A stretch of 64,000 nucleotides of DNA, taken from a bacterium SCSIO 12643 (GTDB lineage: Bacteria; Bacteroidota; Bacteroidia; Flavobacteriales_G; Salibacteraceae). The notes beneath the pieces were generated by a model. The model worked only from the letters and a program-made list of their open reading frames with translations, ran no database searches and had not been told where the DNA came from. The stretch lies in NCBI GenBank assembly GCA_024398135.1, contig CP073750.1, positions 62,001 to 126,000 on the forward strand. The letters run 5' to 3'. Made by a program: the position numbers and the translations under genes. Positions 36,022 through 64,000 of this stretch are shown here, piece by piece; the first letter of the stretch is position 1, and every line of letters starts with the position of its first letter.

Positions 36022-37287
36022 TCAATTTATGGAAATGGTGAAGTCTTCGGGTTTCACCATTTTTTTATGTCTTAACGTTTGTAGCATTTCTATAACTTCT
36101 ACATTTGAATTTAAACCCAATTCATTAAATAATAATATACATGCTTTTGAAACCGGTACGTCCTGCTCTCCTTCATCTCTTAAAAAGTGGAAAAACTTCA
36201 TCACCATAAACACATTGAACCATCTGAAGAAACGTTTTCTAAAACTCTCTAAATCTGTGGTGTATAATCTAATTTCCGCAATAATCTCTTTCCAATCCAC
36301 TGTTTCCAAAAACTTTAATGTCAACTCATCATGAATTTCGGGTTCTGAGATGTACAAGGTATCTACTAACTTCAAAAAGCTTTTCAATCGTTTAAAACTC
36401 TCAAACTGTGCTGTTTTATATATCGGAGTTTGGGCTTCATACATTTCCATCATTGCTCTCCCGGTTCCGAAAGGAACTCTAAATGACTGACGTGATGATG
36501 GGTAAACATTACATGTAGTCAATGCAGAAACCTCTCCGGCCATCATGAGCTTCAGCATAAACCAAAAATCCTCACCAGCTTTTCTTCGATTCATTCCTCC
36601 TTGCAGAACGTAAGCATCACGGGTAACTGCCATGGAAGATCCTACGGTAAATTTAGCATGCGGATGTTCTGCAAATGCCAACCCTGCCTGATAATACCTT
36701 AAATGCAATTCATATTGAATGATACTCTCTCTCTCAAAATCAGTCTGATCATTCACAGCTAAAGGATGCTCAAAATTGATACTGCATCCCAATGACTTAG
36801 GATGCTTAATAAAGTGATTACGTAAAGACATCAGGTAACTGCGATCACAAGTCGCATCCGCATCAAAAGCGGCTATGATAGGATTTTCAATTTCAGTTCC
36901 CTCTAACCTTCGTACCGCTTCATCCATTGCCACTTTGCGTGCCAATCCAGCGCCTGCATGCTTTTTAGGAAAAGATACTGGTTCAGATATCAAAAACTGA
37001 ATGTGGCCATTGTTCTTTTCCTTTGCCCATTTTGATGCCTGATCAAAAACTTCTTGATTTAGATTCTTTTGATCTATATCCGCATTCTCAGGATGGTTAA
37101 TCACCACAATAACCTCTACACCACAATCAGGCAAATCAGATTGTAGCAAGGACTCTAAACTTGTGACTAAATTCACTTCAGCATATGCAGGAATTGTCAC
37201 TACCAGCCCCAGGTTCTTAAGTTTATCCTGCTTAAAGAGGGAATCCGTAAAAGTTTGTCTGGATAAATATTTTTGAATTATTGTCAT
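36022..37287 (-). CDS. Family 2 glycosyltransferase
   Basis: 421 residues. The GT-A fold starts with LGLVVTIPAYAEVNLVTSLES, then VIVVINHPENAD and the nucleotide-sugar/metal motif FDADATCD (D-x-D) near residue 140. There is no membrane helix, so it is a cytosolic or peripheral enzyme. It transfers a sugar from a nucleotide donor to an unknown acceptor. The ATG overlaps the pdxH stop codon (TAATG) in the xrtF operon, suggesting a role in the surface glycoconjugate served by that system. The last ~14 codons also encode the stem of a terminator used by the convergent bTHX gene. Confidence 0.87.
   Translation of the reverse strand: MTIIQKYLSRQTFTDSLFKQDKLKNLGLVVTIPAYAEVNLVTSLESLLQSDLPDCGVEVIVVINHPENADIDQKNLNQEVFDQASKWAKEKNNGHIQFLISEPVSFPKKHAGAGLARKVAMDEAVRRLEGTEIENPIIAAFDADATCDRSYLMSLRNHFIKHPKSLGCSINFEHPLAVNDQTDFERESIIQYELHLRYYQAGLAFAEHPHAKFTVGSSMAVTRDAYVLQGGMNRRKAGEDFWFMLKLMMAGEVSALTTCNVYPSSRQSFRVPFGTGRAMMEMYEAQTPIYKTAQFESFKRLKSFLKLVDTLYISEPEIHDELTLKFLETVDWKEIIAEIRLYTTDLESFRKRFFRWFNVFMVMKFFHFLRDEGEQDVPVSKACILLFNELGLNSNVEVIEMLQTLRHKKMVKPEDFTISIN
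36033..36066 (+). terminator. Intrinsic terminator of the bTHX-like gene
   Basis: Stem AAATGGTGAA/TTCACCATTT with a 10-base loop, followed by T residues on the plus strand. It lies wholly within the coding end of the convergent glycosyltransferase gene. Confidence 0.8.
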
Positions 37288-37940
37288 TATGGTGCTACAC
37301 GATATTTCTTCCAGGAATCATTCTCTTTTTCGAATACTATTCGATCATGCAATCTGGCTGGCCTACCCTGCCAGAACTCAAAATAATTCACTGTAATAAA
37401 ATATCCACCCCAATGTGGAGGTCTTGGCACATCTCCTCCTTCAAATTTCTTTCTATACTCATCAGTAAGTCTCATGAGTTCTTCACGGTCTTTAACCAGC
37501 TCACTCTGAGACGATGCCCAGGCTCCTATCTGACTTTCTCGTGGTCGTTCTGCAAAATAGGCATCACTTTCTGCACTACTCAATTTCGTTACCACACCCT
37601 GAATTCTGATTTGACGCTCCATTTCCGACCAAAATACGTTGGCACAGATGTGCGGATTCTTTTCCAAATCGTTTCCCTTTTTACTGGAATAATTGGTATA
37701 AAACTTTATCCCCTCTTCATTCATGCCACGATTGTAAACAACTCTTGATGAAGGTTTATTTTTAGAATCTACCGTTGAAATTACCATGGCTTTAGGATCT
37801 AAAATTTGTGACCCTACCGCCTCCTCCAACCACTTCGCATACAGTTCTAGTGGATTATCACCAGCAGCACTTTCATTCAGTTCCTGGGATGTAAATTCAT
37901 GGCGAATCTTACTTAAATAATTCGAAACCTCTTCTATCAT
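37287..37940 (-). CDS. pdxH: Pyridoxamine 5'-phosphate oxidase
   Basis: 217 residues, normal length. FMN- and substrate-binding segments are intact: SSRVVYNRGMNEEGIKFYTNY, SEMERQIRIQG, RPRESQIGAWAS, and the C-terminal EFWQGRPARLHDR...W...RVAP. It makes pyridoxal 5'-phosphate from the pyridoxine or pyridoxamine form in the last step of the salvage pathway. The start overlaps the end of the exosortase-associated gene (ATGA) and its stop overlaps the glycosyltransferase start, so all four genes are tightly coupled. Confidence 0.96.
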   Translation of the reverse strand: MIEEVSNYLSKIRHEFTSQELNESAAGDNPLELYAKWLEEAVGSQILDPKAMVISTVDSKNKPSSRVVYNRGMNEEGIKFYTNYSSKKGNDLEKNPHICANVFWSEMERQIRIQGVVTKLSSAESDAYFAERPRESQIGAWASSQSELVKDREELMRLTDEYRKKFEGGDVPRPPHWGGYFITVNYFEFWQGRPARLHDRIVFEKENDSWKKYRVAP

Positions 37941-38374
37941 AATTCCTTCTTTTGACCTTTTTCGTGATATAATAAAGCCGGTATCAGAATCAAAGTCAAT
38001 ACCGGATGTATCAATATTCTTCTTACATAAAACAAATATCTGTATTGCTCAGGTTCTGCTTGCCATGCGCCCCATAAAAAGAATGGAAAAAGCGCAATAA
38101 ATACAATCCCAAGTATAGTACCAGTTAATTTTATCAAATCTCTTTTTTGAAAAATTACCTGAACCAAAGCCAAAGTGAGTAATGTATTAATCCCGTACCT
38201 CAACAACATGGCGCTTGAAAACTTCCAAAAATGAATTTCCGGCAAAGGATGGTTTTGATAATCTGGAATATGAAAGAACTCAATCAATGGATCATAAAAT
38301 AAATGTCCTCCTACGAGTCTAACACCGGCTAGTGCGATGACAATTAATACGATATAGATTGACTTTTTGATCAT
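37937..38374 (-). CDS. Exosortase F-associated membrane protein
   Basis: 145 residues with four predicted membrane helices (about 5-22, 45-65, 80-100, 120-140) and a periplasmic segment with FYDPLIEFFH. This matches the small membrane protein regularly found next to xrtF in flavobacteria. It probably forms a complex with the exosortase in the inner membrane; its role is unknown. It starts three bases after xrtF and overlaps pdxH by four bases. The call rests mainly on pattern plus context. Confidence 0.85.
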   Translation of the reverse strand: MIKKSIYIVLIVIALAGVRLVGGHLFYDPLIEFFHIPDYQNHPLPEIHFWKFSSAMLLRYGINTLLTLALVQVIFQKRDLIKLTGTILGIVFIALFPFFLWGAWQAEPEQYRYLFYVRRILIHPVLTLILIPALLYHEKGQKKEL

Positions 38375-38377
38375 GAA

Positions 38378-38908
38378 TTATTTGTCTGCTAAAAACTTCA
38401 CCCAAACCACCCAAAGTAAGAATGTGGTTCCGTATATAATTCCGGGAAAAATATAATCATGTGCCCATGTTGTATAATCCGGTAAATACAATACGATCAT
38501 TCCTATGAAATAAATTCGAATCAGATTGGCTAAATATAAAATCGTAATTCCCAAAGGTATAAACCACAAATATCTTTGAAACTTACCTTTAAAAGCAATG
38601 ACAAAGGCCACAAATAAAATCATGACACTTATCGCATTGCATCCTTCTATGAGTAACACCAGGGGTACATCAAAATATCGGATCTCTGCGACAGGACTTT
38701 CTCCTGAATAGAATGTGGAGATTTCAGGTAACGACCATGAAAATATTCGAGCCACTTGTTCGGTTACACCCTCGGTAATCATATCAATATGAGTTGTATA
38801 ATACCCCAGATAAAAATTATAGAGTAAAACTCCAGTGATATAAACTGCGAAAAACTTAAATAGGAATAACCAAACAGCTCTATATTTTCCCAAAAATTCC
38901 ACTACCAC
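38378..38908 (-). CDS. xrtF: Exosortase family protein XrtF
   Basis: 176 residues with five or six membrane helices. The exosortase/archaeosortase active-site triad is visible: Cys90 in LIEGCNAIS, Arg131 in NLIRIYF and His150 in AHDYIFP. Exosortases cut or transfer C-terminally tagged envelope proteins in the inner membrane, usually in cells making exopolysaccharide. XrtF is the short flavobacterial type whose substrates are not settled. The start is GTG at 38908. It heads the operon xrtF, associated protein, pdxH, glycosyltransferase. No protein in this window shows an obvious exosortase sorting tail. Confidence 0.9.
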   Translation of the reverse strand: MVVEFLGKYRAVWLFLFKFFAVYITGVLLYNFYLGYYTTHIDMITEGVTEQVARIFSWSLPEISTFYSGESPVAEIRYFDVPLVLLIEGCNAISVMILFVAFVIAFKGKFQRYLWFIPLGITILYLANLIRIYFIGMIVLYLPDYTTWAHDYIFPGIIYGTTFLLWVVWVKFLADK

Positions 38909-38958: not shown

Positions 38959-38966
38959 TACATTTG
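38959..38966 (+). promoter_or_regulatory. -7 box (TACATTTG) of miaE, implying a leaderless transcript
   Basis: The box ends five bases before the ATG at 38972, so transcription should begin at or next to the start codon. The GTG at 38966 would fall inside the box and is therefore rejected as the start. Confidence 0.5.
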
Positions 38967-38971
38967 TGGGC

Positions 38972-39574
38972 ATGAAAAAACAACTTCCTGAAGATTATAA
39001 AATTCAACTCGGATACGAAACACCTAAAGAATGGGTAGATGCCGCTATTGAGAATTTTGACGCTTTCTTAGTTAACCACGCTGATAATGAACGTAAAGCA
39101 TCAACAATGGCCATGAGTTTTATAGCAAAAGCACCGGATAAAACGGAAATCATTGCGGAACTAATCGATGTGGGATTAGAGGAGTTGGTTCATTTCAAAC
39201 AAGTTTACAAGTTAATGGCTAAAAGGGACTTACAATTCCCAAAGGACATTGAAAAAGATGCTTATATTAATCTCCTGATGAAAAGTTGTCGTTCGGGATG
39301 GCGTGAACGTTTTCTAGACCGACTTTTATTGGTGGCCATTGTGGAGACGCGAGGCGCTGAACGTTTTGGTCTGATTGCGCATAATCACCCGGAAAAAGAT
39401 ATCAGAGAGTTTTATACCATGTTATATAAAAGTGAATTCAGACACGGAAGTGTTTTCGTTGAGATGGCCCTAATCTACTACGAAAAGGAAGACGTTATGA
39501 AAAGATTGGACGAAATGATTGCTATTGAAGCAGAAATTTGTGCCTCTTTACCAATTAGAGGATTAATCCATTAA
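38972..39574 (+). CDS. miaE: tRNA-(ms2io6A)-hydroxylase (MiaE)
   Basis: 200 residues, four-helix ferritin-like fold. Di-iron ligands are visible in EELVHFKQV (Glu, His), ETRGAERFG (Glu) and SEFRHGSVFVE (Glu, His). MiaE hydroxylates the isopentenyl group of 2-methylthio-N6-isopentenyl-adenosine 37 in tRNA, using oxygen. The ATG at 38972 is chosen because the nearby GTG overlaps the -7 box. Its stop codon shares the palindrome TTAA with that of the convergent lipoprotein gene. Confidence 0.92.
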   Translation: MKKQLPEDYKIQLGYETPKEWVDAAIENFDAFLVNHADNERKASTMAMSFIAKAPDKTEIIAELIDVGLEELVHFKQVYKLMAKRDLQFPKDIEKDAYINLLMKSCRSGWRERFLDRLLLVAIVETRGAERFGLIAHNHPEKDIREFYTMLYKSEFRHGSVFVEMALIYYEKEDVMKRLDEMIAIEAEICASLPIRGLIH

Positions 39575-40974
39575 TTGGTATAGTTTCTATAAAAACGCGG
39601 GACAATTTTCTTGCTGATCATCTCTTCTGCTTTTCTATACGCTTCTTTGGATGCTAATGTTTTATTACTTCCCACTCCCTTTACTTTAGTTAGTTTATCC
39701 TGATAGACTATACTGTTGTCTTGCGCATTTTTAACAACAACTCTTCCATTTAATAAAACATTATTCAATCCATTCATTACATTGACAAATTGGGTACTGG
39801 ATTCTATTTCAACCCTTAAATCTGCTGATTTCTTGGAGTCTGCCAGTAAAAATCCCATTTCGGCTGCTTGCAACTCAAAGGCTTTCTTTAAATCTGAATT
39901 TCCGCTTTTACTTAAATCCTGTTCATTAGAAGTCACATAAATACTTGGTGCGGTAACTTCCAGCTTAATCAAAGTACTGGGAGCCTTCACATTATCAAAA
40001 ATTAATGAATTAATCTCATCAGGTCTTTTCGTTCCCATGATCATCTTCTCAAAATCAATTTCAACTTTAACTTCTTGTAAGTTATTGGTACTGGTTACTT
40101 TCTTTAATTCAGTAAAGACTGTGCCTTCTAAACTACTCAAACCATCACGCGGACGGATCATTCCCTCAGAATAAGTAAACTTTACCGGAACCTGAGCAAT
40201 TGGTTTTCCATCAAAATCGGTAATGATAAAACTCAAATCATCAGCATTCACCGCACTTCCCCAAACAGTATTCACCTGACTTTTAACCGGCTTAATATGA
40301 AACACGCGTATTCCCTGAGATATTTGAGCAAGAATAAAGTTTCCTAAATACACTTCTTTGGTCCCGTTTATACTCGCTTCCAATGGCTCTGATAAATATG
40401 GTTTTATTGGAGTAAGTGCATCAAAATAACCTTGCATTCCGGCTTTGTAATTACCCGCATGCCAGGAATGCCCTGCTTGTTCTAAAACCTGAACCGACAT
40501 ATCTATAGCCTTGTTGATCTTGATTTCCTTATCTTTTTGGTATTGTTCCTTTGACAATCTATAATAAACCCAGTACTCATACTCATTTTCCCAAACTGCA
40601 ACGGATTCATAATTTTCAATTTGCTGATTGGTTTTTACCTGAATAAACTCTTTGAACTCATCTCTATACTGATTTTCATTTTCAAATGAAAACAACATAG
40701 AATTGGATTTCACTTTTACCTGAATTTCCGAAGCCAATTCATTTAGTGCATTTCTCTGTGCCACTATAGAATAACTTGTTGGATTTGCTGTTTTGGATGC
40801 CACTCCCACCCCAATATAATACATAGGGTCTGTTGGACGGTTAGTCACCCATTTCGGTTTAATTCCTCCAGTTTTCTGTACCTCCGTTGCAGTTGCTTTT
40901 TCGGAGCTACCGCAACCTGGGGTTACTAAAGAAAAACCAACCAAAAGCAATAAAACAATTAAGCTATTCTTCAT
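39571..40974 (-). CDS. LPP20-type lipoprotein
   Basis: 467 residues from the ATG at 40974, which gives a clean lipoprotein signal ending in TPGC (Cys21); ten extra codons upstream are open but unlikely. Residues ~45-150 (KPKWVTNRPTDPMYYIGVGVAS, then AQRNALNELASEIQVKVKS) match the LPP20/flagellar-associated lipoprotein domain. The rest contains a beta-rich middle domain and a C-terminal region resembling the first domain (ADLRVEIESS...KLTKVKG). It overlaps the upstream TPR lipoprotein gene by 11 bases, so the two are translationally coupled. Probably an outer-membrane lipoprotein complex; function unknown. Confidence 0.8.
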   Translation of the reverse strand: MKNSLIVLLLLVGFSLVTPGCGSSEKATATEVQKTGGIKPKWVTNRPTDPMYYIGVGVASKTANPTSYSIVAQRNALNELASEIQVKVKSNSMLFSFENENQYRDEFKEFIQVKTNQQIENYESVAVWENEYEYWVYYRLSKEQYQKDKEIKINKAIDMSVQVLEQAGHSWHAGNYKAGMQGYFDALTPIKPYLSEPLEASINGTKEVYLGNFILAQISQGIRVFHIKPVKSQVNTVWGSAVNADDLSFIITDFDGKPIAQVPVKFTYSEGMIRPRDGLSSLEGTVFTELKKVTSTNNLQEVKVEIDFEKMIMGTKRPDEINSLIFDNVKAPSTLIKLEVTAPSIYVTSNEQDLSKSGNSDLKKAFELQAAEMGFLLADSKKSADLRVEIESSTQFVNVMNGLNNVLLNGRVVVKNAQDNSIVYQDKLTKVKGVGSNKTLASKEAYRKAEEMISKKIVPRFYRNYTN

Positions 40975-42367
40975 CCGGATTATAGCTACTGATCCCATCC
41001 ACAATATTTTTTGAAATTACTTTTAAAACCTCTAAAGACAACTCGTTATGCGACTTTAAAGATGTTTTCTTTGTTCTGACTTTACTGCGCAGTTTTCTTT
41101 GCTCAAAAAATGAACTATACACTTCATCTCCTTTGGCAAATGTCATCCCCTTAGATGAAAACTTACCCGGATATAAATTCTTATAATTTCCATTATAATT
41201 CACAAAATTGACATAATCAGATTTCTCTTTTCTAACCATATCAGATTTAATCACTTCACCAGTTTCAGTAGAAATCATTTGATATTGAAATTCCATTCTC
41301 ACAGAAGAAGCTCCTTCAAACTCAGTATAATACACACGTTTATAACGGGTTTCATAGTATGTCTTTTTGGTTTCCGGATTTACTTTTTTCACTTGATAAG
41401 ATTCAAATCCTTGTCTTCGGAAACTTTCTATCTTACCTCCTATTGGAACGTATCCTACTAACTTTCCTTTCACTAGAATATTGGCTCCCAACAACTCTCC
41501 GGTCTGAATATTTGAGCCGGAAGATTCCGCTTGCGCTACATTGGTCTTTTGCTCATCCAACAGAACTTTGTCATTGGAACGATCCAATATTTTAACGAAA
41601 GGATCATTTACCTGAATTAAACCGTTTACCACATCTTCCTGTACCATATTTGCATATCCGCCTTTTTGAGGAACATCTGTTTTAAACGGCAATACAGCCA
41701 CAGTAATACTTCCTTCTTCTAATGCACGCTCTTTATAATCGATCGCCTCTTTATACATTGGCTTTTGTGAAAGAACATTAGACATGATACGATAACATCT
41801 ACGATATTTCTCTGTATTAAAAGCTTCTATTCCATCCCGATATAATGGTTCCACTGTAGAATGTAAACTTAACTCTTTGACATCCTTGTATTCGGGATCA
41901 AGCTTTAAAATCTCTTTGTAAATCAGATTGGCCTCTTTAAACTTCTCTTCATATAACAGATCTCCAGCGGTTTCATAACGCTCGGCCAAATAGACTACCA
42001 ACATTTCATCATAGTAAGCTTCATAGTACGGTGGAATTTCAACCGAAACAAAATACCCATAACGCCTTTTATAATTCAAAGCTTCCTGGTACTTATATAC
42101 CGCCTCTTTGTAGTTTGAAACCGAATATGCCTTGTAGAAATCTGTTAGGGTTCGCTCAATTTGAATTTGTCCGGTTTGTTTTAAACCAATTTTCGCATCT
42201 ACATTTTTGGGATTTCGTTGTAAAGCCTGTAAATAAAAAGCAGCCGCCTCATCATTTAAACCTGCCTCCTGTAAATTCCTTGCTTTTTTAGAATAACTCT
42301 TTGATCCTGTGCATCCAGCACCCGTTAAAATGGCAAAAGAAATAACGACATAGTAGATTATTTTCAT
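40964..42367 (-). CDS. TPR lipoprotein with CsgG/LpoB-like domain
   Basis: 467 residues from the ATG at 42367, giving lipobox GAGC (Cys19); an ATG nine codons earlier is possible. Residues ~25-210 carry TPR-like helical pairs (AGLNDEAAAFYLQALQRNPK and later copies). From about 220 comes VAVLPFKTDVPQKGG...ILDRSNDKVLLDEQ...GELLGANILVKGKL, the pattern of CsgG and LpoB-type periplasmic lipoprotein domains. LpoB activates peptidoglycan synthases and CsgG forms a secretion pore; which it resembles more cannot be settled by eye. It pairs with the LPP20-like lipoprotein next to it. Confidence 0.8.
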   Translation of the reverse strand: MKIIYYVVISFAILTGAGCTGSKSYSKKARNLQEAGLNDEAAAFYLQALQRNPKNVDAKIGLKQTGQIQIERTLTDFYKAYSVSNYKEAVYKYQEALNYKRRYGYFVSVEIPPYYEAYYDEMLVVYLAERYETAGDLLYEEKFKEANLIYKEILKLDPEYKDVKELSLHSTVEPLYRDGIEAFNTEKYRRCYRIMSNVLSQKPMYKEAIDYKERALEEGSITVAVLPFKTDVPQKGGYANMVQEDVVNGLIQVNDPFVKILDRSNDKVLLDEQKTNVAQAESSGSNIQTGELLGANILVKGKLVGYVPIGGKIESFRRQGFESYQVKKVNPETKKTYYETRYKRVYYTEFEGASSVRMEFQYQMISTETGEVIKSDMVRKEKSDYVNFVNYNGNYKNLYPGKFSSKGMTFAKGDEVYSSFFEQRKLRSKVRTKKTSLKSHNELSLEVLKVISKNIVDGISSYNPDEE

Positions 42368-42394
42368 GTTTAGTTTCGTTGGTTTTCTTCGCAT

Positions 42395-51715: not shown

Positions 51716-53626
51716 TTACCTTACAAATCGCAATGGTTGCTTCCAGTCCGGATGTACAATAAAATACATCCCAGCAGGTAAATCCTCAACATTCACCAAC
51801 CACTTTCCACTTTGTTCAGTCCAATTCAGTTCAATTTTATTTCCAGTAACATCATACACATAACAATCGGAAATGTCAGATTGTACATGCACATTAGAAA
51901 TCTGTAAGACATCAATTACCGGATTTGGATATAATGACGGTGTCATTTTAAGATGATCCATTGATTCATCACTTAAAACGATTTCGGAATTTCTCATCAC
52001 CAACCATCGCTCCGGGTCCACTTGAATAAAACCAATTGGTTGATCCCATGTAAAATTAAACCACTGGTTATTTATGGTATTATCAAATGTAATTGACGTA
52101 TCCGAATTTTGACTTAGGAATTTAAGTTCTACCGGCATTTCAAAGAAATCCACCGAACTATGTGTGGTTACCTGACTTATTTCAACAGAGTAATTGGGCT
52201 GACTCCCTGCCAATACTATCTTATAAATAGGATAACCTTCTCCAAAATACCAATCATTAAAGAATTCTGTTAAATCCTTATTACTAGCTGCTTCAAGATG
52301 TCCTTTTAGATCATTGGTGGTTACGAAACCAAAATGAAATTGGGGGTCATTCAGGTAATTTCTTAACCCTTGAAAGAAATCATCATCTCCTAATTTCCAT
52401 CGCAACATGTGCAATAGCATCGCTCCTTTGTTATAGGTTAATCTTGAACTAAACAATCTTCCAAAGTTCAAAGTATCAGTAACAAAAACGCTTCCTCCAT
52501 TCTGGGAAGTAATATTACCTATTTTACTGCTCTTCCAACTAGACCAGGCTAAATCACTTTTTTCAAATTCATTATACAACCCAGTTAAATAAGTCGCGAA
52601 ACCTTCATTTAGCCAAAGCTCTTCCCATGAACGACATGTTACAAAATTCCCAAACCACTGATGCGCCAATTCATGTGCAATTAGATCATCATCGAATGAA
52701 CCCATAGTCGACATCGTCTGGTGCTCCATTCCTCCTCCAATACTACTTTCGGCATGACCATATTTTTCTTCGTGGAAAGGATATGGTGTAAATAGTGAAT
52801 CAAAAAGATCGAAATAGTCCGCAATATTTTCGTTTTGTGCTTCAGCATAAGCCAAATGCTCCGGATATACATAATTCAATACTGGAAATGAATCACTTCC
52901 AAACGGGATGTATTTAGTAAACTCCACATAATTGGTGACCGCTAATGAAACCAAATACGGAACTACTGGATATCTATGTTCCCAATAATATGTCACATCA
53001 TTTCCTACTGTATCAATATGCGTTAATATCCCCTGGGTTCCTGGTACATTACCTAATGAGGTGGTAATCTGAATGTCTAATGAATCTATTTTATCATTGA
53101 GGCCATCTTTACATGGCCACCAGTTTGAAGCTCCATATGGTTGCGAAATGGTCCAAATCTCAGGAATATTATTTCCATGTAATGAATTCACATACGAACC
53201 TGATGGATCTCCTTGATAGAATATGGTGATTGAATCTGTAGTATTTGGAAGCAAAGGTCCGGAAAGAACTATAACTACAGTACCATCTCCAGGGCGAATT
53301 GGAGTCAGTTGAGTTCCATGATATAGAATCGAATCTACCATTAAGTCATCACTCATATCAAAATACAAATGGTTAATTGTATGTTGATTGACCTTAAAAT
53401 AAGTTTGAACGCTTCCACTAATGGTATCATTTCCAGGATAGACATTCCAATGAATATCATGATACAAAACATCCACACTATCAGACAATGTAGCTACTCG
53501 TTCAGACCTTTGCATCGCTATATTTCTTTCAGATTTTACCAAAGCATCGAGTTTTGAAGCTGAATTATACTGTCCTTGAACAATAGAACCTAAAAGAATA
53601 AAAATGCTGAAAAAATAAAACTTCAT
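51716..53626 (-). CDS. M1 family aminopeptidase with T9SS sorting domain
   Basis: 636 residues from the ATG at 53626, which gives a signal peptide ending in VQGQ (about residue 19); a GTG 18 codons earlier is unlikely. Zinc site H318-E-L-A-H322 with Glu341 in the following NEGFATY (HExxH-x18-E) is intact. The GGMEH motif near residue 300 (exopeptidase signature) is present. The last ~75 residues, from SLYPNPVIDVLQI to FRFVR-like ending, are a type A T9SS sorting domain, so the enzyme is exported across the outer membrane. It removes N-terminal residues from peptides outside the cell. Confidence 0.93.
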   Translation of the reverse strand: MKFYFFSIFILLGSIVQGQYNSASKLDALVKSERNIAMQRSERVATLSDSVDVLYHDIHWNVYPGNDTISGSVQTYFKVNQHTINHLYFDMSDDLMVDSILYHGTQLTPIRPGDGTVVIVLSGPLLPNTTDSITIFYQGDPSGSYVNSLHGNNIPEIWTISQPYGASNWWPCKDGLNDKIDSLDIQITTSLGNVPGTQGILTHIDTVGNDVTYYWEHRYPVVPYLVSLAVTNYVEFTKYIPFGSDSFPVLNYVYPEHLAYAEAQNENIADYFDLFDSLFTPYPFHEEKYGHAESSIGGGMEHQTMSTMGSFDDDLIAHELAHQWFGNFVTCRSWEELWLNEGFATYLTGLYNEFEKSDLAWSSWKSSKIGNITSQNGGSVFVTDTLNFGRLFSSRLTYNKGAMLLHMLRWKLGDDDFFQGLRNYLNDPQFHFGFVTTNDLKGHLEAASNKDLTEFFNDWYFGEGYPIYKIVLAGSQPNYSVEISQVTTHSSVDFFEMPVELKFLSQNSDTSITFDNTINNQWFNFTWDQPIGFIQVDPERWLVMRNSEIVLSDESMDHLKMTPSLYPNPVIDVLQISNVHVQSDISDCYVYDVTGNKIELNWTEQSGKWLVNVEDLPAGMYFIVHPDWKQPLRFVR

Positions 53627-53688
53627 ATAGCAGAAAATTGTTTTGACCGTAGCGTCAACATTGAAATCACATGTATACACGTGTAAAT

Positions 53689-55593: not shown

Positions 55594-58500
55594 TTAGTTA
55601 ATGATCAGTTTTTCATAAGTTACATTTCCTTCACTCTTCAGTGCTATCGTGTAAACTCCAGTACTTAATCTATTTGATTCATTAAACTGAGTTGAAATGA
55701 TCTCATCTGCTTCTACATAACCATCAAAAATCACATCTACCATATTTCCTGCAAAGTCATATAGTACAATGGTCATTTGAGAAGAATTTCTTACTGAGAA
55801 CTCTACTGTAAACTCACCGTTTGATGGATTAGGATATACACTTTTTGAAATTAGATTTACTTCAGCCTTGTTTACGCCACTGCTTAAAGTAATTCCATCT
55901 TCATCACCTCCATTTTCACTGTTATTTCCATATCCTCGGTAATCGTTTCTATTGCAAACTCCTCCTCCAGTTTTCAGAGTTACACCTCCAGAAGCGGTAC
56001 AGCCATTCGCATCAGTAACGGTTACCACATATGTTCCGGTACACAATCCACTGATGTCATCTGTGTTATCACCATTGCTCCAGGAATACGTATAAGGTCC
56101 TGTTCCACCTTGCATGTAATTGAAATTAATATATCCATTACATGAATACTGTGTGGTAGGATTGTAAGCAGTAAACTGACCTTTCATTTTTGAAGGCTCC
56201 GCAACATTAATAGAAACTACTTTAGAACAACCTGCTGCATCTGTTACAGTCACATCATAATCTCCGGCACATACACCTTGAACATCCTGAGTTGTTGCTC
56301 CATTTGACCAATTGTAAGTATAAGGTGCTGTTCCTCCATTTACTGTTAAATCAATTGCTCCATCACATAATGGATTCTCATCACAATCGAACTTAAAGTT
56401 CCCAACACCACCAGAGTTTTTATAATAGATCACTAATTTCTTCACTCCTGATGCATTCATTGTAATGGTTTGAATAGATCCATCTCCCATATTCACGATG
56501 TTCTTAGATACAATTAAGTTATTATTCGCATCATAAGCTTTTGCTGTTCCGTAAGGTCCTCCATCTTTATCGATAAAGTCAAATGAAATCACCTTTCTTG
56601 TTTTCACAAATGTGAAAGTAATCTTACCTCCGTATCTTGTATCATCAGGTAGGTCATAAAGTCCATCATTATTATTATCTACATTGTTTTCCGGGAAGAT
56701 TAGGATGTTTCCTTGATCCACCTCTAAATCAGAATCTCTGGTATTTGACAAGTCAGTATCAAAAATGATCAAATCATGTAATGAACCTGAGTTCGCTACA
56801 CTTGTTAATGTAAATCCAAGTGAATTATAATTTCCTGACATTACTTCTCCGTTACTGTAGTTCGATAAATCAAACTCACAACTTGTATTTGCTGAGTTAC
56901 AGCTGTTATCCGTAACCACATTTGAAACCTGAATTGCATTTGGCTCAGTAATTACAACTTGTTTATACGCTTTACATCCATTTACATCGGTTACCGTCAC
57001 AGTATATGTCCCTGCATCTAAACTATTCACTGTAGCTCCTGATCTTCCATGTGACCAGCTATACGTAAACGGTCCAACTCCACTAGTCGCAGATACCGTT
57101 GCACTACCATCAGAAGAACCATTACATGTTACATCACTTTGAGCCACAATGCTTGCTGTAATACCATTGTTAATTGTAATCGTAATCCAGTTAGATTCTC
57201 CAATATATCTTGAACAATTGCTTCTTCTTGCACATCTTCTGAATTTAGTTGTTTGTGAAACCACTCCTGGATCATATGACGGTCCATTTGCACCTGGTAT
57301 CACGGTCTGAGCCTGGCCAGGTATTTTTTTCAACCAAACATATTCTAAGGTTCCTACACCACCTGACGGTAAACTTACACTTGTAATTGGTGCCGGATCG
57401 AAACTTCCACAGTTAGACTGTGCTCCTGTGATCACACCTGCACTCGTTACATTACAACACATTGTTGCAATTGAACCACTTTCAGTTGCTGTACATCCAT
57501 TCGCATCTGTTACCGTTACACTGTATGTTCCAGGTGACAAGTTATTTACAGTAGCAGTAGTTTCGCCATTACTCCAGCTATAAGTATACGGAGCAGTACC
57601 AGAGGTTATTACTACATTAGCTGATCCATCATTTAAGTTTGCAGCACAAGTCCCCTGAGTCGTCTGAACTGTTACAGTTACACCACCATGAACAGTCATT
57701 GTAATCCAATTGGTTTCTCCAACATACGTAGTACAGTTACTTCTTCTCGCACATCTTCTATACTTAGTTGTTTGTGTAATCATTCCCGGATCATAAGTCG
57801 GTCCATTTGCACCTGGTATCACAGTATATGATTGACCTGGTAATTTCTTTAACCAGATATACTCTATTGTTCCCACACCACCTGCTGGTAAACTTACACT
57901 TGTAATTGGTGCCGGGTCAAAACTTCCACAGTTTGATTGTGCTCCTGTAATTGCTCCTGCGCTGGTTACATTACAACACATTGTCGCTATAGTGTTACTA
58001 CCTGTTGCTGTACATCCATTGGCATCCGTTACTGTTACTGAATATGTTCCTGGTACCAGACTATTAATTGTTGATCCTGTTGAACCGTTTGACCATGCAT
58101 ATGTAAATGGTGCTGTTCCTCCTGATACAACTGTATTCATACTTCCGTTGGCTAAGTTACCTCCACAAGTCGCTTGTGTGGCCTGAACTGTCGCACTTAA
58201 TGCAGTCGGCTCTGTAATCGTTACTTGTGTACTTCCAGTACATCCATTTACATCTGTTACAGTCACTGAATATGTTCCTGCTGATAAATTACTCAATGTA
58301 GCTGTAGTACCACCATTACTCCAAGCATATGTAAATGGAGCACTTCCTGTTGCATTTACTGTAGCATTTCCATTTGAAGCTCCGTTACACATTACATTAC
58401 TATAAGAAACAATATTTGCGGTTACACCACCATGAACAGTCATTGTAATCCAATTGGTTTCTCCAACATACGTAGTACAGTTGCTTCTTCTCGCACATCT

Positions 58501-61500
58501 TCTATACTTAGTTGTTTGTGTAATCACTCCCGGATCATAAGTCGGTCCATTTGCACCTGGTATCACAGTATATGATTGACCTGGTAATTTCTTTAACCAG
58601 ATATACTCTATTGTTCCCACACCACCTGCGGGTAAGCTTACACTTGTAATTGGTGCCGGATCAAAACTTCCACAGTTAGACTGTGCTCCGGTAATTGCTC
58701 CTGCACTGGTTACATTACAACACATTGTCGCAATGGTGTTACTTCCTGTCGCAGTACATCCGTTCGCATCCGTTACTGTTACACTGTACGTTCCAGGTAC
58801 CAGACTATTAATGGTTGATCCTGTTGATCCGTTTGACCATGCATAGGTAAATGGTGCTGTTCCACCGGTTACTAATGTGTTCATGCTTCCATTTGCCAAG
58901 TTACCGCCACAAGTTGCTTGGGTAGCTTGAACTGTTGCACTTAATACATTCGGTTCAGTAATCGTTACTGAACTTGTACTCGTTGCACCATTAGCATCAG
59001 TTACTGTTACACTGTATGTTCCTGCAGCCAATCCGTTGATAGTTGAAGTTGAAGCTCCATTTGACCATGCGTATGAGTAAGGAGTTACTGCTCCGCTTGC
59101 ACTTGCTGTTGCTGATCCATTAGCATTTCCGTTACAATCTACATTGTTGTTTACTACTGCTGTAGAAGTCAATGCGGTTGGTTCTGTTACCGTTGATGTC
59201 GCTACTGCGGTACATCCATTTGCATCAGTTACAGTCACTGTATATGTTCCTGCTGTTAGACCTGAGATTGTTGCAGTCGTTGCTCCAGTGTTCCATGCAT
59301 AAGTATATGCTGGGGTTCCTCCGTTTGCTGATGCTGCTACTTCTCCGTTAGAGCCTCCGTTGATTAATACGTTTGCGTTTACCACGCTTGATGCGGTTAA
59401 TGCTGTCGGCTCAGTGATTGTTACTGAACTTGTGCTTGTTGCTCCGTTCGCATCTGTTACAGTTACACTGTATGTTCCTGCTGATAGTCCGTTAATTGTA
59501 GCCGTTGAAGCTCCGTTTGACCATGCGTAAGTATAAGGAGTTACTGCGCCACTTGCTGATGCTGTTGCTGATCCGTTCGCATTACCATTACAATCTACAT
59601 TGTTGTTTACTACTGCTGTAGAAGTCAATGCACTTGGCTCTGTTACTGTTGAACTCGCTACTGCGGTACATCCATTTGCATCTGTTACAGTCACTGTATA
59701 TGTTCCTGCTGTTAGACCTGAGATTGTTGAAGTTGTTGCTCCGGTTGACCATGCATAAGTGTATGCTGGTGTTCCTCCATTGGCACTTGCTGCTACTTCT
59801 CCGTTTGATCCTCCGTTGATCAACACATTCGCATTTACTACGCTTGATGCGGTTAATGCTGTTGGCTCGGTAATCGTTACTGAGTTTGTTGATGTTGCTC
59901 CGTTAGCATCTGTTACAGTTACTGTATATGTTCCTGCTGCCAGGTTTGTAATCGTAGCTGTTGTTGCCCCATTTGACCATGCATAGGTGTATGGAGTTAC
60001 TGCTCCGCTTGCTGATGCTGTTGCTGAACCATTTGCATTACCATTACAATCTACATTGTTGTTTACTACTGCTGTAGAAGTCAATGCACTTGGCTCTGTT
60101 ACTGTTGATGTTGCTACTGCGGTACATCCATTTGCATCGGTTACTGTTACTGTATATGTTCCTGCTATTAGGTTTGTGATCGTAGCTGTTGTTGCTCCGG
60201 TTGACCATGCATAAGAGTATGCTGGGGTTCCTCCGTTTGCACTTGCTGCTACTTCACCGTTTGAGCCTCCATTGATTAACACGTTTGCATTTACAGTTGA
60301 TGCTGCTACTAGTACGGTTGGCTCTGTGATCGTTACTGAACTTGTACTTGTTGCTCCGTTCGCATCTGTTACAGTCACTGTGTATGTGCCAGCAGCTAAT
60401 CCATTGATTGTTGAAGTCGAAGCTCCATTTGACCATGCATATGAGTAAGGAGTTACTGCTCCGCTTGCTGATGCTGTTGCTGATCCGTTCGCATTTCCGT
60501 TACAATCTACATTGTTATTTACTACTGCTGTAGAAGTCAATGCCGTTGGCTCTGTTACTGTTGAACTCGCTACTACGGTACATCCATTTGCATCGGTTAC
60601 TGTTACTGTATATGTTCCTGCTGTCAAGTTAGAGATTGTTGAAGTTGTCGCTCCGGTTGACCATGCATAAGTGTATGCTGGTGTTCCTCCATTGGCACTT
60701 GCTGCTACTTCTCCGTTTGATCCTCCGTTGATCAACACATTCGCATTTACTACGCTTGATGCGGTTAATGCTGTCGGCTCGGTAATCGTTACTGAGTTTG
60801 TTGATGTTGCTCCGTTAGCATCTGTTACAGTTACACTGTATGTTCCTGCAGATAGTCCGTTAATCGTTGATGTTGTTGATCCGTTTGACCATGCATATGA
60901 GTAAGGAGTTACTGCGCCACTTGCTGATGCTGTTGCTGAACCATTTGCATTACCGTTACAATCTACATTGTTGTTTACTACTGCTGTAGAAGTCAATGCG
61001 GTTGGCTCTGTTACTGTTGATGTCGCTACTGCGGTACATCCATTTGCATCGGTTACTGTTACTGTATATGTTCCTGCTGTCAAGTTAGAGATTGTTGAAG
61101 TCGTTGCTCCGGTGTTCCATGCATATGTGTATGCTGGGGTTCCGCCATTTGCACTTGCTGCTACTTCTCCATTTGATCCTCCGTTGATTAACACATTCGC
61201 ATTTACTACGCTTGATGCGGTTAATGCTGTTGGCTCTGTGATCGTTACTGAGTTTGTACTTGTCGCTCCGTTCGCATCTGTTACAGTTACACTGTATGTT
61301 CCTGCTGCAAGGTTTGTGATTGTAGCTGTTGTTGAGCCGTTTGACCATGCATATGTATAAGGAGTTACTGCTCCGCTTGCACTTACTGTTGCTGATCCGT
61401 TCGCATTTCCGTTACAATCTACATTGTTGTTTACTACTGCACTTGATGTCAATGCGGTTGGCTCTGTTACTGTTGATGTTGATACCGCAGTACATCCATT

Positions 61501-64000
61501 TGCATCAGTTACAGTCACTGTATAGGTTCCAGCTGTCAAGTTAGAGATTGTTGAAGTTGTTGCTCCGGTTGACCATGCATATGTGTATGCTGGGGTTCCT
61601 CCATTTGCACTTGCTGCTACTTCACCGTTTGAGCCTCCGTTGATTAACACATTCGCATTTACTACACTTGATGCGGTTAAGGCTGTTGGCTCTGTGATCG
61701 TTACTTGAGCTGTTGCATCACATCCTTTGCTATCTGTTGCAGTTACAGTATAAGTTCCTGCTGTTAGATTTGTGATCGTAGCTGTTGTTGCCCCATTTGA
61801 CCATGCATAGGTAAATGGTGCAGTTCCGCCTGTTGCACCTGCAGTTGCTGATCCAGTACTGGTTCCATGACAACTTGCATTAGTTGATGATACAATTGAA
61901 GCGGTTACTGTTGGATTTACTTCAATCGCTATCACATTAGATTCTCCTGCATAGAATGTACAAGTACTTGTTCTTGCACATCTGATGAAATATGTTGTTT
62001 GAGTCAATACGCCCGGATCGTATGTGGCACTTGTTGATCCTGGGATCATTGTCCAATGTGGATTTCCTACAGTGTTTGGTACGTTCACTAAACTTTGTAA
62101 CCAGATATACTCTATTACGCCTACTCCACCTGATGGTAAGCTTACACTTGTAATCGGTGCCGGATCAAAACTTCCACAGTTAGACTGTGCTCCGGTAATT
62201 GCTCCTGCACTGGTTACATTACAACACATTGTTGCGATGGTATTACTTCCTGTCGCTGTACATCCATTCGCATCCGTTACTGTTACTGAATACGTTCCAG
62301 GTACCAGACTATTAATTGTTGATCCTGTTGAGCCGTTTGACCATGCATAGGTAAATGGTGCTGTTCCACCTGTTACTAATGTGTTCATGCTTCCATTTGC
62401 CAAGTTACCGACACAAGTTGCTTGGGTAGCTTGAACTGTTGCACTTAATACATTCGGCTCAGTGATTGTTACTGAACTTGTACTCGTTGCTCCGTTCGCA
62501 TCTGTTACAGTTACACTGTATGTTCCTGCAGCTAATCCATTGATTGTTGAAGTTGAAGCTCCATTTGACCATGCATATGAGTAAGGAGTTACTGCTCCGC
62601 TTGCTGATGCTGTTGCTGATCCGTTCGCATTTCCGTTACAATCTACATTGTTATTTACTACTGTTGTAGAAGTCAATGCCGTTGGCTCTGTTACTGTTGA
62701 TGTCGCTACTGCGGTACATCCATTTGCATCTGTTACAGTCACTGTATATGTTCCTACTGTTAGACCTGAGATCGTAGCTGTTGTTGATCCGGTATTCCAT
62801 GCATAAGAGTATGCTGGGGTTCCTCCGTTTGCTAATGCTGCTACTTCTCCGTTTGAGCCTCCGTTAATTAACACATTAGCATTTACTACGCTTGATACAG
62901 TTAAGGCTGTCGGCTCCGTAATCGTTACTGAACTTGTACTTGTTGCTCCGTTGGCATCTGATACAGTCACTGTGTATGTTCCTGCTGCAAGGTTTGTGAT
63001 TGTAGATGTTGTTGATCCGTTTGACCATGCAAATATATAAGGTGTTACTGCTCCGTTAGCTGATGCTGTTGCAGATCCATTTGCATTACCGTTACAATCT
63101 ACATTGTTGTTCACTACTGCACTTGAGGTCAATGCACTTGGCTCAGTTACTGTTGAAGTTGCTACTGCTGTACATCCGTTGGCATCAGTTACTGTCACAG
63201 TATATGTTCCAGCAGTAAGGTTTGAAATCGTTGAAGTTGTCGCTCCGGTTGACCATGCATAAGTATATGATGGTGTTCCTCCGTTTGCTGACGCTGCTAC
63301 TTCTCCGGTTGACCCTCCGTTGATTAACACGTTTGAATTTACTACACTTGATGCTGTTAAGGCTGTCGGCTCAGTGATCGTTACTTGAGCTGTTGCATCA
63401 CATCCTTTGCTATCTGTTGCAGTTACAGTATATGTTCCTGCTGCTAGATTAGTAATTGTAGCTGTTGAAGCTCCATTTGACCATGCATATGTAAATGGTG
63501 CGGTTCCTCCTGTTGCACTTGCTGTTGCAGAACCAGTACTGGTTCCATGACAACTTGCATTTGTTGATGATACAATTGAAGCAGTTACTGTTGGATTTAC
63601 TTCAATAGTAATCACATTTGATTCACCTGCATAGAATGTACAAGTACTTGTTCTTGCACATCTAATGAAATATGTTGTTTGAGTCAATACTCCCGGATCA
63701 TATGTTGCGCTTGTTGACCCTGGTATCATTGTCCAGTGTGGGTTACCAACTGTGTTTGGTACATTTACATGACTTTGTAACCAGATGTACTCTATTGTTC
63801 CTACTCCTCCTGATGGTAAACTTACACTTGTAATCGGTGCTGGATCAAAACTTCCACAGTTAGACTGTGCTCCGGTAATTGCTCCTGCACTGGTTACATT
63901 ACAACACATCGTTGCAATTGTATTACTTCCTGTTGCTGTACATCCGTTCGCATCTGTTACTGTTACTGAATAAGTTCCTGGTACCAAGCTATTGATTATT
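55594..64000 (-). CDS. Giant SprB-repeat adhesin with T9SS sorting domain (N-terminus outside the window)
   Basis: At least ~2,800 residues, continuing past the window edge, so the true start and signal peptide are not seen. It is built of ~76-residue SprB repeats (consensus around AWSNGxxTxxIxxLxxGTYxVTVTDANGC) and five separate modules beginning CCNVTSAG and containing CGSFDPAPITS (near 57.45, 57.97, 58.72, 62.22 and 63.90 kb). A calcium-type Asp/Asn-rich module follows near 56.4-56.9 kb, then two more SprB repeats and a type A T9SS sorting domain (SVYPNPSNGEF...EKLIIN). SprB is the mobile gliding adhesin of flavobacteria; this relative is a surface adhesin probably displayed by T9SS. The gliding partners are not in this window. 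Confidence 0.9.
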   Translation of the reverse strand, partial: IINSLVPGTYSVTVTDANGCTATGSNTIATMCCNVTSAGAITGAQSNCGSFDPAPITSVSLPSGGVGTIEYIWLQSHVNVPNTVGNPHWTMIPGSTSATYDPGVLTQTTYFIRCARTSTCTFYAGESNVITIEVNPTVTASIVSSTNASCHGTSTGSATASATGGTAPFTYAWSNGASTATITNLAAGTYTVTATDSKGCDATAQVTITEPTALTASSVVNSNVLINGGSTGEVAASANGGTPSYTYAWSTGATTSTISNLTAGTYTVTVTDANGCTAVATSTVTEPSALTSSAVVNNNVDCNGNANGSATASANGAVTPYIFAWSNGSTTSTITNLAAGTYTVTVSDANGATSTSSVTITEPTALTVSSVVNANVLINGGSNGEVAALANGGTPAYSYAWNTGSTTATISGLTVGTYTVTVTDANGCTAVATSTVTEPTALTSTTVVNNNVDCNGNANGSATASASGAVTPYSYAWSNGASTSTINGLAAGTYSVTVTDANGATSTSSVTITEPNVLSATVQATQATCVGNLANGSMNTLVTGGTAPFTYAWSNGSTGSTINSLVPGTYSVTVTDANGCTATGSNTIATMCCNVTSAGAITGAQSNCGSFDPAPITSVSLPSGGVGVIEYIWLQSLVNVPNTVGNPHWTMIPGSTSATYDPGVLTQTTYFIRCARTSTCTFYAGESNVIAIEVNPTVTASIVSSTNASCHGTSTGSATAGATGGTAPFTYAWSNGATTATITNLTAGTYTVTATDSKGCDATAQVTITEPTALTASSVVNANVLINGGSNGEVAASANGGTPAYTYAWSTGATTSTISNLTAGTYTVTVTDANGCTAVSTSTVTEPTALTSSAVVNNNVDCNGNANGSATVSASGAVTPYTYAWSNGSTTATITNLAAGTYSVTVTDANGATSTNSVTITEPTALTASSVVNANVLINGGSNGEVAASANGGTPAYTYAWNTGATTSTISNLTAGTYTVTVTDANGCTAVATSTVTEPTALTSTAVVNNNVDCNGNANGSATASASGAVTPYSYAWSNGSTTSTINGLSAGTYSVTVTDANGATSTNSVTITEPTALTASSVVNANVLINGGSNGEVAASANGGTPAYTYAWSTGATTSTISNLTAGTYTVTVTDANGCTVVASSTVTEPTALTSTAVVNNNVDCNGNANGSATASASGAVTPYSYAWSNGASTSTINGLAAGTYTVTVTDANGATSTSSVTITEPTVLVAASTVNANVLINGGSNGEVAASANGGTPAYSYAWSTGATTATITNLIAGTYTVTVTDANGCTAVATSTVTEPSALTSTAVVNNNVDCNGNANGSATASASGAVTPYTYAWSNGATTATITNLAAGTYTVTVTDANGATSTNSVTITEPTALTASSVVNANVLINGGSNGEVAASANGGTPAYTYAWSTGATTSTISGLTAGTYTVTVTDANGCTAVASSTVTEPSALTSTAVVNNNVDCNGNANGSATASASGAVTPYTYAWSNGASTATINGLSAGTYSVTVTDANGATSTSSVTITEPTALTASSVVNANVLINGGSNGEVAASANGGTPAYTYAWNTGATTATISGLTAGTYTVTVTDANGCTAVATSTVTEPTALTSTAVVNNNVDCNGNANGSATASASGAVTPYSYAWSNGASTSTINGLAAGTYSVTVTDANGATSTSSVTITEPNVLSATVQATQATCGGNLANGSMNTLVTGGTAPFTYAWSNGSTGSTINSLVPGTYSVTVTDANGCTATGSNTIATMCCNVTSAGAITGAQSNCGSFDPAPITSVSLPAGGVGTIEYIWLKKLPGQSYTVIPGANGPTYDPGVITQTTKYRRCARRSNCTTYVGETNWITMTVHGGVTANIVSYSNVMCNGASNGNATVNATGSAPFTYAWSNGGTTATLSNLSAGTYSVTVTDVNGCTGSTQVTITEPTALSATVQATQATCGGNLANGSMNTVVSGGTAPFTYAWSNGSTGSTINSLVPGTYSVTVTDANGCTATGSNTIATMCCNVTSAGAITGAQSNCGSFDPAPITSVSLPAGGVGTIEYIWLKKLPGQSYTVIPGANGPTYDPGMITQTTKYRRCARRSNCTTYVGETNWITMTVHGGVTVTVQTTQGTCAANLNDGSANVVITSGTAPYTYSWSNGETTATVNNLSPGTYSVTVTDANGCTATESGSIATMCCNVTSAGVITGAQSNCGSFDPAPITSVSLPSGGVGTLEYVWLKKIPGQAQTVIPGANGPSYDPGVVSQTTKFRRCARRSNCSRYIGESNWITITINNGITASIVAQSDVTCNGSSDGSATVSATSGVGPFTYSWSHGRSGATVNSLDAGTYTVTVTDVNGCKAYKQVVITEPNAIQVSNVVTDNSCNSANTSCEFDLSNYSNGEVMSGNYNSLGFTLTSVANSGSLHDLIIFDTDLSNTRDSDLEVDQGNILIFPENNVDNNNDGLYDLPDDTRYGGKITFTFVKTRKVISFDFIDKDGGPYGTAKAYDANNNLIVSKNIVNMGDGSIQTITMNASGVKKLVIYYKNSGGVGNFKFDCDENPLCDGAIDLTVNGGTAPYTYNWSNGATTQDVQGVCAGDYDVTVTDAAGCSKVVSINVAEPSKMKGQFTAYNPTTQYSCNGYINFNYMQGGTGPYTYSWSNGDNTDDISGLCTGTYVVTVTDANGCTASGGVTLKTGGGVCNRNDYRGYGNNSENGGDEDGITLSSGVNKAEVNLISKSVYPNPSNGEFTVEFSVRNSSQMTIVLYDFAGNMVDVIFDGYVEADEIISTQFNESNRLSTGVYTIALKSEGNVTYEKLIIN
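56360..56900 (-). other. Asp/Asn-rich calcium-type module inside the adhesin
   Basis: A non-SprB segment with SDLEVDQGNILIFPENN, then NVDNNNDGLYDLPDDTRYGG, FDFIDKDGG and the ending GGVGNFKFDC. I recognise this type of module from other large marine bacterial surface proteins. The closely spaced Asp and Asn residues suggest calcium binding; the role is inferred. Confidence 0.6.
58960..61680 (-). repeat. 456-bp tandem superrepeats in the adhesin, main block
   Basis: The landmark GCGGTACATCC (plus strand, with minor changes) occurs at 59207, 59663, 60119, 60575, 61031 and 61487: six copies exactly 456 bp (152 codons) apart. Each unit holds two different 76-residue halves (type A and type B) in strict alternation. 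No indels are seen between units, which indicates homogenisation. Confidence 0.85.
60780..64000 (-). repeat. 1,680-bp higher-order duplication in the adhesin
   Basis: Positions 62460-64000 repeat 60780-62320 at a constant offset of 1,680 bp. For example, the stretches at 61681 and 63361, at 61021 and 62701, and at 62281 and 63961 match nearly base for base. Each copy includes one CCNVTSAG module and several SprB repeats, and the second copy is cut by the window end. Confidence 0.8.

Follow-up and report, generated by a model that had tools for sequence, protein, structure and literature searches.

In the 64,000-nucleotide window analysed here (C1:62001-126000), the exosortase gene xrtF and the gene for its associated membrane protein probably form one functional unit, placed ahead of an older pair consisting of pdxH and a family 2 glycosyltransferase (GT2) gene, with XrtF acting in trans on a secreted microprotein encoded elsewhere. 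In the organism's own genome the most likely candidate substrate, judged from its sequence, is a single 72-residue PID-CTERM microprotein whose gene adjoins what we take to be gldF (the gene names of that region are likewise presumed). The sequence-only reading had left the natural substrate of XrtF as an open question, and rightly so; one paper describes XrtF targets as not yet known as of May 2025 (PMC12188702). In the open literature searched, no publication that connects XrtF with PID-CTERM turned up, and we offer the microprotein as a good candidate answer that we have not found in print.

Table 1 Features of the xrtF locus (positions in the window) and the candidate substrate gene (genome positions, prefix C1).
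Feature	Position	Strand	Remarks
xrtF, exosortase family protein XrtF, 176 aa	38378-38908	minus	GTG start; TIGR04128 141.7 bits (cut-off 90)
Cys90 codon, presumed nucleophile of XrtF	38639-38641	minus	invariant in 51/51 aligned XrtF/XrtX
Arg131 codon of XrtF	38516-38518	minus	invariant in 51/51 aligned XrtF/XrtX
His150 codon of XrtF	38459-38461	minus	invariant in 51/51 aligned XrtF/XrtX
Exosortase F system-associated membrane protein, 145 aa	37937-38374	minus	TIGR04127 114.2 bits (cut-off 35)
pdxH, pyridoxamine 5'-phosphate oxidase	37287-37940	minus	TIGR00558 251.3 bits (cut-off 180); apparent bystander
Family 2 glycosyltransferase (GT2), 421 aa	36022-37287	minus	PF13632 25.5 bits; apparent bystander to xrtF
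miaE-like tRNA hydroxylase, divergent	38966-39574	plus	PF06175 134.6 bits; edge of the stretch receiving xrtF and partner
PID-CTERM microprotein gene, 72 residues	C1:3012785-3013003	minus	NF046080; 2.9 Mb from xrtF

By its profile matches, the enzyme is a genuine exosortase XrtF with its partner and an intact triad, and with a putative transpeptidase or protease activity. It also matches the model of the exosortase fold family (TIGR04178, 58.2 bits); against exosortase X (XrtX, NF046081) it scores 99.2 bits, below the cut-off of 170, and is thus not assigned to that family. An AlphaFold2 model of XrtF has a mean pLDDT of 94.3 and a pTM of 0.87, and PDB relatives were found neither by sequence nor by fold (best E 2.4). 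The sequence-only reading had described four closely spaced genes and a complete Cys90/Arg131/His150 triad, and both descriptions were borne out: the triad is invariant in all XrtF and XrtX proteins aligned, xrtF and its partner are separated by 3 bases, the partner and pdxH overlap by 4 (ATGA), and pdxH and the GT2 gene overlap by 1 (TAATG). Three of the four family assignments were confirmed; that of the GT2 protein is weak, with a PF13632 score slightly below the cut-off of 27, and a profile scan gave it no NCBIfam match. The TIGR04127 family of the partner is present in 67 of 81 XrtF loci, in 64 of them immediately after xrtF, and the partner protein of one locus (L011) matches both the TIGR04127 and the XrtX-associated membrane protein models, so the partners of the two enzymes are related. 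This relationship suggests that the TIGR04127 protein is an accessory of the exosortase. On the other side of the miaE-like gene, overlapping LPP20-like and CsgG/TPR-like lipoprotein-type open reading frames occupy positions 39571-42394.

The route to the candidate substrate led through the XrtX relatives of XrtF, whose matches to TIGR04128 are mostly near or below the cut-off. They have, directly upstream, a protein of ~75 residues with a signal peptide, a Pro/Gly/Cys stretch, PIDGG, a helix and a basic end, which is PID-CTERM (NF046080, NCBIfam). We searched this model in 100 relatives, 72 exosortase-positive and 28 exosortase-negative, the latter defined solely by TIGR04128 at E<=0.001, and tallied the 2x2 tables by hand. 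PID-CTERM scored above its cut-off in 57 of the 72 positive genomes and in none of the 28 negative ones. A broader profile, A4, at E<=1e-5 matched 71 of the 72 (missing G090) versus 1 of the 28; with its 13 training genomes removed, the count was 58 of 59 versus 1 of 28.

A further profile, A3, was built from 17 microproteins of genomes outside the test set and applied to 24 genomes picked purely for having XrtF (23 named genomes and G061). It matched 22 of them at E<=1e-3, missing G111 (0.062) and G116 (0.71), and matched one of the 28 exosortase-negative genomes (G036, 5.9e-6; next best 0.038). A4 matched all 24, most weakly G116 at 1.6e-4, but was partly trained on these genomes, so the 22 of 24 obtained with A3 is the fair figure. 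XrtF is the only exosortase in 28 of 35 XrtF genomes, and in each of these 28 a tail protein was matched at E<=1e-3. G036, in which a tail microprotein occurs and no exosortase was detected, is a draft of 270 contigs; because its genus-mates G038 and G040 carry XrtX beside a microprotein gene, its exosortase was possibly lost in an assembly gap.

Each XrtF genome encodes 1 to 4 tail microproteins, at scattered loci. The distance from the microprotein gene to the downstream xrtF is 50 nt in G008, and in G054 the two belong to one gene cluster. Some tail proteins of G117 and G118 are encoded beside a second exosortase and so, by position, are not XrtF's own; each of the two genomes encodes another beside a ribE-like gene. 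The second exosortase in these two genomes (L208, L228) has its own PLDGG-tailed small proteins, some of them rich in Lys, Gly and His.

A substrate encoded near xrtF was rejected after two scans of 80 loci and the window. The first, for a helix and a basic tail, covered 1510 genes in the 80 loci together with the window region and returned two chance matches only; its minimum of 70 residues made most microproteins invisible to it. The second, with A4 and starting from 40 residues, detected no substrate microprotein, either within 10 kb of xrtF at the 80 named loci or anywhere in the window. The window as a whole likewise yielded no protein with an exosortase tail, as the sequence-only reading had stated, and the two T9SS-tail proteins it had reported are present, with C-terminal domains (CTDs) in 51716-53680 and in the open-ended 55594-63999. 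Recurrent neighbours of xrtF in Flavobacteriaceae are a divergent 151-aa protein, a TonB receptor, a HYC_CC_PP protein and a CopZ-like protein; we take the 151-aa protein to be GAF-like and other xrtF neighbours in this family to be rod-shape genes. As a functional lead these conserved neighbours were set aside, being judged housekeeping.

XrtF is the single exosortase of its own genome, according to a whole-genome search. The sequence-only reading had proposed searching the genome for a motif followed by a helix and a basic end, and this search returned one protein, the 72-residue microprotein: NF046080 matched once, at C1:3012809-3012880 on the minus strand (44.3 bits versus a cut-off of 26; 43.2 bits when the protein itself was scanned), and A4 found no second tail protein in the genome at E<=0.01. 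The microprotein consists of a signal peptide, ~14 proline-rich residues, PIDGG, a membrane helix and a basic end. Its gene follows genes for proteins of ~260 and then ~97 residues in G000, G001, G002, G012 and G014, and in G005 it follows the first of the two; it adjoins gldF in G000, G001 and G002. Upstream of gldF we saw no microprotein at any of the 29 loci compared from 29 other genomes, so the position is particular to the relatives of the organism's own genome, and we dropped it as a general rule. We also rejected a single operon of the PID-CTERM gene and gldF, since a terminator-like stem with a T-run (L141:9738-9765) directly follows the former and precedes the latter; G001 has a similar stretch. 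In many Flavobacteriaceae (L193, L194, L196, L201, L202, L205, L206, L207, L211, L215, L216, L224, L232) the microprotein gene adjoins two genes that we take, by name, to be riboflavin synthase (ribE)-like, with an MFTGIIE start, and pdxA-like. Vitamin B6 was considered as a shared theme and discarded: the ribE-like gene is convergent, and the pdxA-like neighbours were taken as a coincidence.

We then describe the tail from 45 aligned microproteins, whose rows were chosen by profile match, so that the alignment is a description and not a test. The motif proline is invariant and the motif appears to widen to P-[IVL]-[DNST] (PID 26, PVD 7, PIN 6, PIS 2, PLD 2, PIP 1, PIT 1); the distance from signal peptide to motif is 8-35 residues (median 14), and the C-terminus is net positive in all 45. 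Ten proteins of this wider set were scored with NF046080: three pass (L141, L193, L206), four fall below the cut-off (L197, L226, L215, L233) and three have no match. A cysteine precedes the motif in 28 of 36 tail proteins at XrtX-type loci versus 4 of 45 in the A4 set, so the substrate type differs with the enzyme type.

The neighbours of the tail genes point to the type IX secretion system (T9SS). The 24 XrtF genomes yielded 38 tail genes at E<=1e-4, with 25 close same-strand neighbours of at least 120 aa. Nine of these neighbours carry a T9SS CTD, versus 10 of the 1510 genes around xrtF (Fisher 1.3e-12), and a T9SS neighbour is lacking for 29 of the 38. Seven of the nine also trained the CTD profile, and all seven pass TIGR04183 independently; the other two (L260, L263) were called with the CTD profile only. 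TIGR04183 is passed by nine of ten adhesin-like open reading frames tested, the exception being that of L235, and a T9SS-CTD gene lies directly upstream of 17 of 29 XrtX-linked tail genes. The background frequency of T9SS proteins varies by genome, with at least 150 matches to the type A sorting domain in G000, 72 in G061 and 41 in G054. These adhesin neighbours fit the biofilm loss of xrtF mutants: in a study of F. johnsoniae, deletion of xrtF or Fjoh_1449 abolished zorbs and strongly reduced biofilm, like deletion of porU, porV or porZ (PMC10936215). In the same study, colony spreading was lost in only the sprA mutant of nine, and colonies of the xrtF and Fjoh_1449 mutants still spread (PMC10936215).

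From these observations we infer a mechanism in which XrtF, seated in the inner membrane, would act in trans on a very small precursor that is secreted. The signal peptide suggests that Sec exports the microprotein, and the C-terminal helix may then keep it in the membrane with its basic end inside. By analogy with archaeosortase and the PEP-CTERM exosortase, Cys90 of XrtF would attack near P-[IVL]-[DNST] at the outer face. The ~14-residue proline-rich peptide could next be passed to an acceptor and from there reach the surface; conjugation of the new C-terminus by an exosortase is an idea from other systems, summarised in two papers (PMC7468200, PMC11980579). At the surface, as gene adjacency and the published mutant phenotypes would suggest, the peptide may serve T9SS type A adhesins, often encoded nearby, in biofilm and surface growth. 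Several observations speak against parts of this scheme, among them the distance of the microprotein genes from xrtF at the 80 named loci and in the window, the microprotein of G036, and the many tail genes that have no T9SS neighbour. The gene order of PID-CTERM is tied to the sister enzyme, as the gene directly precedes xrtX for 28 of 36 tail genes, and its assignment to XrtF is therefore by extension. As for a role with adhesins in the organism's own genome, the microprotein gene there adjoins gldF and not an adhesin gene, with the terminator-like stem between them.

A two-helix membrane microprotein would look like a tail substrate, and the microproteins might stay uncleaved and serve XrtF and XrtX as stable subunits or as activators. 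Identical co-occurrence would be expected in that case, and the position directly before xrtX would suit it too, but we consider it unlikely: XrtF genomes have up to four microproteins, scattered and in many cases beside T9SS adhesins, and a three-part tail whose invariant motif lies at the edge of the membrane has the look of a sorting substrate. There is also a small chance that XrtF has other, larger substrates whose tails the profiles missed, the microproteins being a side line or belonging to another enzyme. Tail motifs already range from PIDGG to PINxx and SPVDM, several of them missed by the NCBIfam model; against this, most XrtF genomes (28 of 35) have no other exosortase, and the strong matches covering the tail all lie in short open frames.

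At 36022-38908 an XrtF pair of the usual kind stands next to what looks like a bystander operon, and the meaningful pairing of xrtF with pdxH and the GT2 gene envisaged by the sequence-only reading was not supported by the comparison of neighbourhoods that it had proposed. Other genomes contributed 80 XrtF loci, and two of these (L031, L032), both from the same genus, have pdxH near xrtF; the order is kept whole in L031 and up to pdxH, at which the contig ends, in L032. In the 78 loci outside the genus it is never beside xrtF. Of 100 relatives, 33 were found to have the GT2 gene. It directly adjoins pdxH at every one of the 12 loci compared, with xrtF there in only two (the organism's own genome and G001) and missing in ten. 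It is missing from the XrtF genomes G012, G014, G019 and G023, and occurs in the exosortase-negative G036, G042, G062, G076, G082 and G087. The order in G008, HU - GT2 - pdxH - miaE (divergent), is that of the window minus xrtF, its partner and a small THX gene, and the XrtF of G008 is encoded elsewhere in that genome; G070 likewise has GT2 - pdxH - miaE (loci without xrtF: L273, L274). Since xrtF and its partner stand between miaE and pdxH in this genus only, the simplest history is their insertion there in an ancestor of the genus. Thus pdxH and the GT2 gene look like an older pair, independent of xrtF, and like bystanders; cotranscription of the four genes is possible, and of a common function there is no sign. 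The pair of pdxH and the uncharacterised GT2 gene (36022-37940) is conserved across several families (L247-L258, L273-L275). A functional tie of XrtF to PdxH and GT2, for instance in making a PLP- or sugar-derived acceptor, is very improbable despite the tight spacing and the order conserved within the genus, given the absence of pdxH beside xrtF outside it and the independence of the older pair.

Beyond the action of XrtF in trans on a secreted microprotein, we tentatively propose, with more doubt than confidence, that XrtF and XrtX form an exosortase branch for microproteins, in which precursors of ~70 residues yield ~14-residue proline-rich peptides on an acceptor and the conjugate is a partner or anchor required by T9SS type A adhesins at the cell surface. 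If true, this would connect two sorting systems so far regarded as distinct and account for the resemblance of xrtF mutants to porU, porV and porZ mutants. A candidate substrate offers a reason why the T9SS attachment genes and an exosortase of the inner membrane have a common phenotype, and having 1 to 4 candidates per genome makes the substrate question testable.

The closest known system is that of exosortase X, PID-CTERM and the XrtX-associated membrane protein (NF046082), alike in the tail of the substrates and in related partner proteins; exosortase X is the nearest other family to XrtF among the models scanned (99 bits). The substrates of XrtX adjoin xrtX and mostly have cysteines before the motif, whereas the candidate substrates of XrtF are encoded elsewhere, mostly lack a cysteine and vary to PIN, PVD and PIS. 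PEP-CTERM/EpsH exosortases share with XrtF the fold family, the Cys-Arg-His triad and the succession of motif, helix and basic end, but their motif is PEP and not P[IVL][DNST], and PEP-CTERM substrates are large proteins while the XrtF candidates are microproteins. PorU, which works on the CTD at the outer membrane, PorV and PorZ belong to protein families separate from XrtF. This T9SS attachment complex is nevertheless like XrtF in its F. johnsoniae mutant phenotype (PMC10936215), and the adhesin neighbours of the tail genes link the XrtF system to T9SS.
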